Position numbers and translations under genes: made by a program
Notes under the pieces: generated by a model
The model's database searches: none
Seen by the model: only the letters and a program-made list of their open reading frames with translations
Told to the model about the DNA's origin: nothing
Shown: in pieces, positions 2,159 to 5,495 of the stretch
Numbering within the stretch: position 1 is the first letter of the stretch
Layout: each line of letters starts with the position of its first letter
NCBI RefSeq assembly: GCF_000159635.1
Contig: NZ_GG667194.1
Coordinates: 24,329-88,328, forward strand
Length of the DNA: 64,000 nt
Direction: 5' to 3'
Origin: Corynebacterium lipophiloflavum DSM 44291
GTDB taxonomy: Bacteria > Actinomycetota > Actinomycetes > Mycobacteriales > Mycobacteriaceae

Positions 2159-2566
2159 ATGCCGAACCAGATCGACGTCGTCGGAGCCGTATTCATTCGC
2201 CGCGGCAGCGTTTTCGCGGCACGGCGCGGTCCCGACAAGGCAATTCCCGGCGCCTGGGAATTTCCAGGCGGGAAGATCGAGCTCGGTGAGAGCCCGCGGG
2301 ACGCGCTAGTCCGCGAGCTTAGGGAAGAGCTACTTATCGACGCTCGCGTGGATGCGCACCTGACAACAACGGCGCATGCTTACGACTTTGGGGTCGTCAG
2401 TCTCTCCACTTACCTGTGCGAATTAGTATCCGGCGATCCTGTGTTGACTGAGCATTCCGAAGCTCGCTGGGTTGCTGTTGAGGACCTTCCTTCGCTGGAT
2501 TGGGCGCCCGCCGATATTCCCGCTGTTGAATTGCTCGTTGAAAGGGGTCAACGTGGAGAGCTCTAA
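2159..2566 (+). CDS. Nudix hydrolase, MutT-like (8-oxo-dGTP diphosphatase type)
   Basis: Hydrolyses nucleoside diphosphate-X substrates. The closest recognisable type is the MutT/(deoxy)nucleoside triphosphate pyrophosphohydrolase. The protein has 135 residues, usual for MutT. The full Nudix box is present at residues 38-60: GGKIELGESPRDAL followed by REL and REEL, including the metal-binding glutamates. ATG 2159 lies 7 nt after a -10-like TAAGCT (2146-2151) with no clear Shine-Dalgarno, which fits a leaderless transcript. Its last 14 bp overlap the start of the downstream helicase, so the two are almost certainly one transcription unit. The substrate cannot be told from sequence. Confidence 0.9.
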   Translation: MPNQIDVVGAVFIRRGSVFAARRGPDKAIPGAWEFPGGKIELGESPRDALVRELREELLIDARVDAHLTTTAHAYDFGVVSLSTYLCELVSGDPVLTEHSEARWVAVEDLPSLDWAPADIPAVELLVERGQRGEL

Positions 2567-5495
2567 AGCAACGTTGCGGCCTGCCGTCGACCACGGTTTC
2601 ATCCAAGCTAATTCCAGCCAATTTCACGACCGTGGTCCCTCGCTAGTTCTCAACGATTCGGCAATGACGATGGGCGGCGTCCTCCGCACCGAGCTTGAAC
2701 GCGCAGATTCATTCCAATTTTCCGTAGCGTTTGTCACCACCGACGGGATTGGGACAATCACCCAACAGCTAAGCCAATTCAAGGGCAAAGGAACGATTGT
2801 CACGTCCGATTACCAGGACTTCAATGAGCCCGATGCGTTACGCGAACTGTTGAAGTTCGACCACATTGAGGCACGGATTCTTGTCGGCAAGCCGCACCAC
2901 GCGAAAGGGTACATTTTTCACCACAGCGACCACCTCACCGCACTGGTTGGAAGTTCCAACCTGACCAGGAACGCTTTACTCAGCAACAACGAGTGGAACC
3001 TAAAGTTTTCGAGCCACGACGACGGCGACATCGCGATTCAGCTGAGTAGGGCGGTTAAATGGCAGCGTGAAAATTCGGTTGTGTTGACCGAAGACTGGAT
3101 TGATCAGTACGAAAAGCGCCGGAAGCAGCGCACAGTAATTTTCGACGACGTGTCTCAACCCATTTCACTAAGCGATGACGGTGAAGAGATATTGCCCAAT
3201 CTCATGCAGACCGAGGCGCTGGAAAACCTTCAGCGCGTTATCGACGCCGGCGAGCGCCGAGCGATCATCATTTCTGCAACGGGTACTGGAAAAACAATTC
3301 TTTCGGCACTAGCAGTGAGGCAGATTAAGCCACGCCGTGTCCTCTTCGTCGCCCACCGAGAACAAATTCTGAACAAGGCCGCTGAAGAGTTTCAACGAGT
3401 GCTCGCCTGCCCGCCAACTGATATCGGTTTTATCGTCGGGCAACGTAAGGAAGCTAATCAACGCCTGGTCTTTGCAACAATTCAATCCCTAGGCCGCGGC
3501 GACACGCTGAGCGAGATTTCCCCCAAGCAATTTGACCTTGTCATCGTTGACGAGGTCCATCGCTCTGGAGCCGAGTCTTACCAGAAGGTGCTCAACCATT
3601 TCCGCGCGGACTTTACGCTAGGGCTTACTGCGACCCCGGAACGCACCGATGGGTTCAATGTTTTTGAGCTTTTCGACTACAACGTGCCCTACGAGATTCG
3701 ATTGGAGGACGCGCTCGAAAACCACATGCTTGTCCCCTTTGACTACTACGGCGTATCGGACTACGAATCCGCATTTGGGTCGGTGATCTCGGATAACTCG
3801 ACCTTGCAACAGTTGGCAGCCCCTGAGAGGGTGCATCATCTAGCGAAAATCATTCAAGACTACTCCTTTGCGCGAGGTTCCAAGGGGTTGATCTTCTGCA
3901 GCAGCAACGCCGAAGCGGCCGCTTTAAGCAAGGGGCTAAACACAGAATCGGTCCATGGCCGTCCGCTACGTACCATCGCGCTATCCGGCGGGGACTCAAT
4001 CGAAACTCGTGAGAACACCGTGGAGAAGCTGGCTCAAGGCGAAATCGACTACATCCTCACGGTCGACATTTTCAACGAAGGCATCGACATTCCTCCTGTC
4101 AACGTGGTGGTTATGTTGCGCAGCACCCAATCATCGATCGTGTTCACCCAGCAACTTGGCCGCGGCCTGCGCAAATATGCGGGCAAGCGCTCGCTACGTG
4201 TCATCGACGTGATTGGTAACTACGCCACGAATTTTCTCGTTGCGGTCGCGCTTACGGGCGATCGATCCGGCAGCAAGGACGTGATCAAGGAGGGACTGCA
4301 TCGAACACGCACGCACCCTTTAGCCGGTGCCTCGACCGTGAGCTTCGATCGGGTCTCCATGCAGCGAATTGTTGAATCTTTGCAAAAGGCCCGCATTGCT
4401 GACCGGAAGGCGAAGCGGGAAGCAATTTTAAACTTGCAGTACCGGTTGGGGAGGATCCCTTCACTTGTTGACTTCGAAAACCACGAGTCGATGAACCCAT
4501 TCATTCTCGCCGCAACGGACAACAATGCGTCGAACTATTGGTCCCTCCTGAACGCGCTCAAGTTCGTTGGAACGCCACCTTCTTCGCATGAGGCGGCAGT
4601 ACTGTCCATGCTGTCTACTGAGCTGCTGAACGGTAAACGGCCCCACGAATTACTCCTCCTCCGAACCCTGATCGAAAACGGCCCGATCAGTGTCGATAGT
4701 TTCAGAAACTCACTGCAACGGCAGGGGCTAGACGCCTCGGCGAAGCATCTCGAATCGGTAGAGCGGATCTTGAACCTGTCATGGTTTGTAAAGGCCACGG
4801 CTCAAAAATATGGCTCGAAACCAATCGTGGAACGCGTGGGCAATCAGTACCGACTCGGTCGCGAGTTTGCCTCTCTCTACGGGTCCTACGCCGCGGAGCA
4901 CCCGCACCCCGAAATGAGTTTCCGAGCCCACGTCGACGACATCCTCGCGACGGGTCTGCTGATCAATCGCAAGCACTATGGCAGCGGCGACCGCCTCCTC
5001 CCGGGCAAGCTGTATTCGCGCAAAGATGCGTGCCGGCTGCTCAACTGGAAACAGAATGCGGAGAGCACAATCATGGGCTACAAAGTCGATAAGCATTCCG
5101 GTACCTGTCCGATTTTTGTCACCTACCACAAAGATCCGGACGTCGATACGCGCCTGCAGTACGGCGATCATCTCGTAAATCGATCCACCATGCACTGGTT
5201 TTCGCGGCACGGGCGAACTTTGGAAAGCAAGGAACTCCAACCAATTTTGTCCAATTCGGTTGAGTTGCATCTTTTCGTTAAACGCGAAGATGCGGACGGC
5301 CTTGAGTTTCACTATCTAGGCCAAGCCGATTCGACCGATGCGCAAAACACGACGATGAGGGGCAACAACGGTGATTACCTCGACGTGGTGACGACGGACC
5401 TCATACTCCACCACCCAATTCCCCAGGAAATCTTCGACGCCATCACCGCCTCGAAAACCGTCGCATCGGTAGCGGTACCCCACACCACCTCATAA
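2553..5495 (+). CDS. PLD-like nuclease / SF2 helicase / DUF3427 protein
   Basis: A 980-residue protein. The GTG at 2553 is chosen because AAAGGGG sits 6 nt upstream and residues before it look unrelated to any domain. Order of domains: a phospholipase-D-type nuclease half-site (HAK at about 116-118, GSSNLT at about 133-138). Then an SF2 helicase core with Walker A ATGTGKT (242-248), DEVH box (333-336), TATPE (about 359-363) and arginine-finger motif QQLGRGLRK (533-541). Then a C-terminal DUF3427 region. The combination suggests ATP-driven movement on nucleic acid with attached cleavage; the biological role is not established from sequence. Base use is visibly AT-richer than its neighbours (many AAA, AAT, TTT codons), suggesting acquisition by transfer. 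It is translationally coupled to the Nudix gene. Confidence 0.9.

Follow-up and report, generated by a model that had tools for sequence, protein, structure and literature searches.

SauUSI of Staphylococcus aureus is known to cut DNA containing 5-methylcytosine (5mC) or 5-hydroxymethylcytosine (5hmC) in a manner dependent on adenosine triphosphate (ATP), and it was characterised as a single protein. According to passages of two papers, it acts as a restriction enzyme on its own in Escherichia coli and in vitro (PMC3874153) and is a major gene-transfer barrier of S. aureus (PMC7913695). We analysed a stretch of 64,000 nucleotides from Corynebacterium lipophiloflavum DSM 44291 (contig NZ_GG667194.1, positions 24,329 to 88,328; in the following, the window), in which a gene for a SauUSI-type nuclease of 980 residues (2553..5495, plus strand, GTG start, identified by its open reading frame and by homology) is preceded by a gene for a Nudix hydrolase of 135 residues (2159..2566, plus strand, ATG start, Pfam NUDIX 70.9 bits). 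The 3′ end of the Nudix gene and the 5′ end of the nuclease gene have 14 bp in common, and GAAAGGGG lies immediately 5′ of the GTG start. We hypothesize that the two genes form a type IV restriction cassette, which combines a shredder of 5mC-containing DNA with a Nudix enzyme that guards the nucleotide pool against 5-methyl-deoxycytidine triphosphate (5-methyl-dCTP), and we give this reading a probability of roughly 55%.

Among solved chains, the best match of the large protein is SauUSI (7clg_A; E=5.3e-198, 663 bits, residues 12-964), and the PADLOC model mREase_IV scores 669 bits. Pfam recognises PLDc_2 (28.2 bits, cut-off 27), ResIII (133 bits), Helicase_C (52 bits) and DUF3427 (263 bits, 280 of 280 positions covered). 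Three parts can be delimited on the plus strand: a phospholipase D (PLD) nuclease domain at about residues 38-156 (2664..3020; PLDc_2 and SauUSI alignment), with H116 and K118 of a HAK motif followed by GSSNLT; a superfamily 2 (SF2) motor at about residues 215-540 (3195..4172; ResIII and Helicase_C), with the Walker A motif GTGKT and DEVH; and the coupler together with the DUF3427/SRA-like target recognition part at residues 686-965 (4608..5447; DUF3427 and SauUSI alignment). The residues H116, K118, K247, D333 and E334 are invariant in homologue alignments A1 (16 rows) and A3 (25 rows). In the alignment with 7clg, E126 of the HxKx4E motif of SauUSI corresponds to a histidine in the window protein. 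A 5mC pocket formed by Y831, F841, I842, D858 and W868 has been proposed for SauUSI in a section of PMC7913695, and the same alignment places Y843, F855, V856, D872 and W882 at these positions in the window protein. F855 and W882 are found in 25/25 rows of alignment A3, Y843 in 23/25 and D872 in 20/25, while in alignment A1 Y843, F855 and D872 are kept in 16/16 rows and W882 in 10/16. M829, for which that section proposes insertion into the DNA, is equivalent to M841, a residue not conserved among the homologues. An AlphaFold model of the nuclease (mean predicted local distance difference test (pLDDT) 80, predicted template modelling score (pTM) 0.58) has 7clg as its top Foldseek match (E=1.6e-65); because of the low pTM and of a root mean square deviation of 9.6 Å from 7clg over the chain, the domain placement in the model was not used.

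By the features that can be tested in its sequence, the large protein is a SauUSI-family type IV enzyme, and it would be expected to cleave modified DNA as SauUSI does. The nuclease half of the locus is thus a further member of an already known family. A preliminary description of the window had reported a 980-residue protein joining a PLD nuclease (HAK, GSSNLT), an SF2 helicase and a DUF3427 end, which Pfam and the motifs corroborate; it had recognised the domains, but not that their order is that of SauUSI. It had also suggested a function in defence or repair. Defence agrees with a modification-dependent restriction enzyme of SauUSI type, as judged from sequence and predicted fold, while repair found no support: the RadD model, with a cut-off of 720 bits, scores 104 bits.

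The pairing of the two genes was examined in a genus sample of 201 Corynebacterium genomes (nuclease matches at E<=1e-60), whose genus was deduced from named loci with equal scores. A nuclease match is present in 85 of them, 51 being of SauUSI type and 34 of type B, a sister subfamily with a divergent DUF3427; these labels reflect the reach of the alignment, and two type B members from the genus and two from outside were checked with Pfam and PADLOC. Six aligned type B nucleases (L083, L085, L095, L097, L099 and L102) retain the D and W of the pocket and have V in place of Tyr. A Nudix gene lies within 3 kb of 49/51 SauUSI-type and 34/34 type B nucleases. The two unpaired SauUSI-type genomes are G166 and G096, and in the latter the nuclease gene is in pieces. 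Somewhere in the genome, a Nudix match was found in 85/85 nuclease carriers vs. 17/116 non-carriers. Outside the genus, in a phylum sample, 6/6 SauUSI-type nucleases adjoin a Nudix gene; within the samples, type B is accompanied by Nudix only in corynebacteria.

In a wider species collection a Nudix gene adjoins 73 of 80 SauUSI homologues, a proportion that applies to the closer homologues since these are the best 80 of 578 confirmed places. They were found with an alignment-based scan (a single-protein query had matched no relative), six of them share an identical nuclease sequence with loci of the samples, and together they cover Actinomycetota, Bacillota and one archaeal (Methanobrevibacter) assembly. 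The Nudix gene is located upstream on the same strand in 62 cases, downstream on the same strand in 2 and downstream in convergent orientation in 9. In the 62 upstream pairs the median gap, computed with script-estimated start codons, is 8 bp, with 20 pairs overlapping and 56 between -30 and +50 bp. The 73 pairs represent 35 flank contexts, 24 of which occur a single time, and the protein distances of Nudix and nuclease are correlated (Mantel r=0.50, reached in 0 of 999 permutations). In S. aureus itself the ATG of the SauUSI gene is situated 1 bp beyond the stop codon of a Nudix gene, and yet a word search of two texts on SauUSI for nudix and mutT returned 0 occurrences.

Genomes with the nuclease contain few C5-cytosine methyltransferases, as expected for an enzyme that cuts 5mC. 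Such a methyltransferase is present in 13/85 nuclease-carrying genomes (10/51 of SauUSI type, 3/34 of type B) vs. 69/116 others, with a Fisher p=1.8e-10 that serves only as a guide because the genomes are related. In the genome from which the window derives, no C5-methyltransferase was detected at E<=1e-10.

What could the small enzyme hydrolyse? The Nudix box GX5EX7REUXEEXGU lacks only its last Gly, replaced by Leu, and the catalytic G, E, R, E, E and E form columns of our residue table; the preliminary description, which had called the box full, was thus slightly too strong. The nearest solved chains are 5x1x, 3r03, 5zrc, 3gwy and 2rrk. Over the aligned stretch, the sequence of 5x1x, an entry filed as mismatch-repair MutT, is that of the S. 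aureus Nudix protein, and the closest solved relatives after it are 3r03, MutT2, 3GWY and NudG. The predicted model (pLDDT 96) has BdRppH, MutT2 with 5mdCTP, 3gwy and Orf135 as Foldseek neighbours. The PAD motif contains A118 and D119 (codons at 2510..2515, plus strand), the latter at the place of N119 in MutT. With D119 and H99 the window protein agrees with NudG (D/H), while MutT has N/G, and we take this pair to mark pyrimidine substrates. In the residue table, which comprises 198 Nudix rows with some genomes repeated, D119 is found in 55/55 rows from SauUSI-type loci of genus and phylum samples, 71/74 of the species collection, 9/9 linked to C5-methyltransferases, 19/20 linked to type B and 7/7 from plasmids; the corresponding numbers for H99 are 55/55, 72/74, 9/9, 20/20 and 7/7. 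The protein misses the cut-offs of both the NudG equivalog (NCBIfam PRK10546, 94.9 bits against 156) and the MutT equivalog (TIGR00586, 81.7 bits against 97.9, N119 also being absent), and therefore belongs to a subfamily separate from either.

Its relatives have been described in part. For the Bacteroides fragilis protein Q5LBB1 (3GWY), data in PMC5158307 give a kcat/Km of 4.8e6 per M per s on 5-Me-dCTP and of 4.4e6 per M per s on 5-MeOH-dCTP; NudG appears as a 5-methyl-dCTP pyrophosphatase in a list in PMC5389931, and the activity of E. coli MutT on 5-methyl-dCTP is weak according to a passage of PMC3744803. The substrate of the window enzyme is probably 5-methyl-dCTP, with 5-hydroxymethyl-dCTP as well. 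Of the functions that had been suggested for it beforehand, the cleaning of nucleotides came nearest, but the likely objects are these two modified nucleotides and not damaged ones prepared for the helicase.

In the proposed mechanism the SRA-like C-terminal domain would flip out the 5mC or 5hmC of incoming DNA, recognition of the base would switch on the motor, which runs on ATP, and the PLD domains, acting as a pair, would shred the DNA between sites. The fragments would be degraded to 5-methyl-dCMP, part of which would be converted to 5-methyl-dCTP by host or phage kinases; phage kinases of this kind are cited in a passage of PMC10742078. The modified dCTP might come from shredded foreign DNA or from phage enzymes. 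A polymerase would insert it into the host chromosome at target sites, where the nuclease would then cut. By hydrolysing 5-methyl-dCTP, and probably 5-hydroxymethyl-dCTP, to the monophosphate, the Nudix enzyme would keep it out of the chromosome and would act as a guard of self against non-self at the level of the pool, the counterpart of the methyltransferase in ordinary restriction-modification (R-M) systems. The danger of self-damage is real for another 5mC nuclease, since McrBC can kill its host once the genome becomes methylated, as stated in a part of PMC2614495.

Nudix genes also occur away from the nuclease. In the genus sample, 21 of 104 Nudix matches are more than 3 kb from any nuclease match: 9 (in 7 genomes) have a C5-methyltransferase at a distance of up to 5 kb, two are at contig ends, two by nuclease remnants, and six are solitary with lower scores. 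One (G108) adjoins genes for Z1 and DUF4420, the methyltransferase there being 9.6 kb away, and one (G014) adjoins another helicase. The C5 partners belong to NaeI R-M systems in four genomes, while a fifth genome combines NgoMIV with a CglI-like system; the further C5-linked genomes are G161 and one whose enzyme resembles Eco29kI (30.4 bits, cut-off 30.8). The genome with NgoMIV (G141, L124:4344-12295) features two near-identical Nudix copies and the NgoMIV R-M genes; a second C5-methyltransferase belongs to its CglI-like NgoFVII/Z1 system. The link to C5-methyltransferases is one of place only, without enrichment at the genome level: they occur in 9/17 genomes with Nudix only vs. 60/99 genomes free of both Nudix and nuclease (Fisher p=0.60).

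On plasmids, 13 records contain a Nudix match at E<=1e-18, and our classing covers 12 of them (H9 being left out; for H2, H3, H5 and H6 coordinates served as the basis). A SauUSI-like gene is found beside it in 5. In the 7 others (7/7) the Nudix gene is adjacent to a nuclease gene or fused with one, namely HNH in four, an HNH-Nudix fusion in one, GmrSD_N plus AspBHI_N-Mrr_cat in one, and MrcB_N-HNH with an additional predicted endonuclease in one. PADLOC classifies the AspBHI-like neighbour as methyl-directed (340 bits), the HNH protein of L134 as mREase_IV (78 bits) and, weakly, the MrcB_N protein likewise (27 bits). AspBHI is a member of the 5mC-dependent MspJI family. The neighbour in a Sphingomonas record (L131) was considered as methyl-directed and rejected, as PADLOC assigns it at 80 bits to the ordinary HNH/type II enzymes. 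The HNH endonuclease-Nudix fusion is encoded on the Paenibacillus polymyxa plasmid NZ_CP010270.1 (L133:3921-5384). An S. aureus record labelled as a plasmid, NZ_CP077890.1, may be a piece of chromosome; its SauUSI gene lies unannotated in two reading frames (L138:5356-8211).

The neighbours of Nudix were identified in three of eight further loci outside the genus: an McrC homologue (L219), a Schlafen-type helicase (L220) and housekeeping genes (L221). The McrC match at L219 comes from Pfam, while PADLOC gives none and calls the neighbouring AAA protein REase_II/PDC-S02-like, so that McrBC at this locus is tentative. In genome G543 a Nudix gene is close to an McrC homologue recognised by Pfam, behind which an AAA_5 protein is encoded, and PADLOC does not call the two McrBC. 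Helicase genes of Schlafen group 3 (DUF2075) are seen near Nudix in L132 and L136 (by record names) and in L220 (by Pfam).

Several observations weigh against a pool guard coupled to the nuclease. The activities of both window proteins are predicted from their sequences, and the presence of free 5-methyl-dCTP in such cells is an assumption of this reading. Since SauUSI alone restricts, Nudix is dispensable for cutting. In the phylum sample, the 30 other genomes that carry the nuclease show no Nudix gene within 3 kb of it (0/30 at E<=1e-25, judged by eye), and 7 of the 80 SauUSI homologues have none in the stretch examined, one of these being at a contig end. The Mantel correlation could be explained by shared descent, and the mutator phenotype of NudG is tied to 2-OH-dATP in a passage of PMC5158307. 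The first Foldseek match of the Nudix model is BdRppH, an RNA pyrophosphohydrolase, so that an RNA substrate has to be considered. Only 9 of 101 C5-methyltransferase places in the genus sample have Nudix within 5 kb (eight rows of the match list were left out of these place lists), NaeI R-M loci of G142 and G036 occupy the hotspot described below without Nudix, and, by eye and among the matches listed, none of 78 Nudix matches of the phylum sample is near a C5-methyltransferase. Several of the C5 R-M loci share this one insertion hotspot, and in the Nudix tree the C5-linked copies are nested among nuclease-linked ones with 6 label changes. The idea that Nudix is a general companion of C5 R-M systems was given up in view of the NaeI loci without it and of the phylum sample, which leave a partial link, seen within the genus only.

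The main rival to the pool guard is an offensive role, in which Nudix would destroy the 5-hydroxymethyl-dCTP or 5-methyl-dCTP pool of phages, so that a phage is cut if modified and fails otherwise if not. The substrate evidence serves both explanations equally, as does the fact that Nudix is paired with restriction enzymes both in chromosomes and in plasmids. A phage with less modification, however, would be protected from a modification-dependent nuclease, and we consider this role unlikely.

General housecleaning, with a MutT-like Nudix enzyme removing oxidised nucleotides during shredding or repair and no tie to 5mC, would account for the fold, the many MutT-like matches and the six solitary, lower-scoring copies in the genus. 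It would also suit the breadth of the PADLOC model PDC-S07, which gives 165 bits on the window Nudix protein, 147 bits on NudG (L228:2491-2898) and 131 bits on MutT (L227:545-934), the last two from E. coli. For this reason many of the 78 phylum-sample matches may be NudG- or MutT-like. As PDC-S07 is moreover reported in 99% of Enterobacter genomes (in a part of PMC12851794), it is probable that surveys using this model score housecleaning genes of the core genome as defence genes. But the score of 81.7 of 97.9 bits with the MutT equivalog, a D119/H99 pattern unlike MutT, and the presence of Nudix beside a 5mC-dependent nuclease at 73 places among the best 80 of 578 argue against housecleaning, which we regard as distinctly unlikely.

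A third explanation treats Nudix as a passenger, a resident gene at defence hotspots that shares no function with the restriction systems inserting beside it. At the hotspot beside a Gate-arginase-IclR-hutH block (L063, L096, L097, L111, L115, L117, L120, L125, L229 and L232), SauUSI, type B, NaeI and Z1/DUF4420 systems are exchanged while Nudix is constant; the NaeI loci without Nudix and the mixing of C5-linked and nuclease-linked copies in the tree point in the same direction. This tree (FastTree, 124 columns, 177 rows, without sequences of <100 residues, duplicates and loci L103-L110) is weakly resolved, and at least 5 label changes are forced by branches with a local support of >=95. In view of the exchange at the hotspot, the NaeI loci without Nudix, the null enrichment and the nesting in the tree, the C5 link may in part reflect Nudix genes left behind where systems are exchanged. 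For the pairs with SauUSI, on the other hand, a passenger is improbable: the 73 pairings among the best 80 of 578 places come from an archaeal assembly and two bacterial phyla and represent 35 flank contexts, and the genes overlap or almost touch in three arrangements. A regulator that acts on RNA 5′ ends as RppH does, or on a messenger nucleotide that switches the nuclease, has BdRppH as first Foldseek match and a suggestion in the preliminary description in its favour, but is very improbable, as RNA pyrophosphohydrolase models (PRK00714) reach 22-32 bits against cut-offs of 116-259, SauUSI works without a partner and is switched by methylated target and ATP (parts of PMC3874153 and PMC7913695), and nothing pointing to a signal nucleotide was seen in this analysis.

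We return to the pool guard as the preferred reading. By a tentative extension, to which we give slightly less than even odds, methyl-cytosine-dependent systems, and SauUSI in particular, possess a pool antidote of their own against their recycled products, common to unrelated 5mC systems. If our reading is true, a conserved and closely coupled partner that destroys the matching modified nucleotide explains how a host tolerates a nuclease that cuts 5-methylcytosine, part of the unexplained PDC-S07 group of PADLOC gains a function, and self and non-self are discriminated on nucleotides instead of DNA. Could type IV restriction be toxic without pool cleaning? The locus raises this question, and it has a bearing on the transformation of corynebacteria with methylated plasmid DNA. 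In a Streptococcus suis survey, PDC-S07 and type IV R-M genes are co-localised in 23/23 occurrences (a passage of PMC12813430), the one published co-location found. No paper tying SauUSI or another type IV enzyme to a Nudix partner was found in the literature library searched; PMC7159879 mentions both SauUSI and nudix, in unrelated passages of the part available. Relative to that literature, the function of the Nudix partner and pool cleaning within modification-dependent restriction would be new.

The pair is flanked by a DeaD gene on the left (minus strand) and a lactate dehydrogenase gene on the right, in agreement with the earlier placement between deaD and ldh. The 14-bp overlap of the two genes, described there too, is confirmed by the open frames 2159-2566 and 2553-5495. 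They had also been described as AT-richer than their flanks, and indeed the large gene has a GC content of 54.5% and the Nudix gene one of 59.6%, vs. 65.9% in the window from 5504 on, with a GC content at third codon positions of 65% and 61% vs. 81-86% in three sampled genes. A universal core locus of normal GC, which would have spoken against a defence module, is not what we find, given this low GC and the presence of the SauUSI type in 51 of 201 genomes.

The closest described system is SauUSI (PDB 7clg), with which the window protein shares the order of PLD nuclease, SF2 motor, coupler and DUF3427/SRA described in a part of PMC7913695, as well as the HxK, Walker A and 5mC-pocket residues. 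It differs by an identity of about 36% (S. aureus record) and by its host, and its activity and target are predicted from homology. The Nudix protein resembles B. fragilis Q5LBB1 (3GWY; 72.7 bits over 126 residues) in its fold, in the EH and LDWA-AD-P segments, and in the D and H of the base site. NudG/Orf135 and mycobacterial MutT2 are likewise small Nudix enzymes active on 5-methyl-dCTP with D at the place of MutT N119, although nudG of E. coli K-12 has no restriction gene in the 7 kb inspected. PDC-S07 is a function-free label whose unspecific model the window protein matches. A last parallel is Vsr, the accessory gene of some C5-methyltransferases. Both are small genes handling a side effect of 5-methylcytosine, but Vsr acts at T:G mismatches in DNA, whereas the Nudix enzyme would act on the nucleotide pool.

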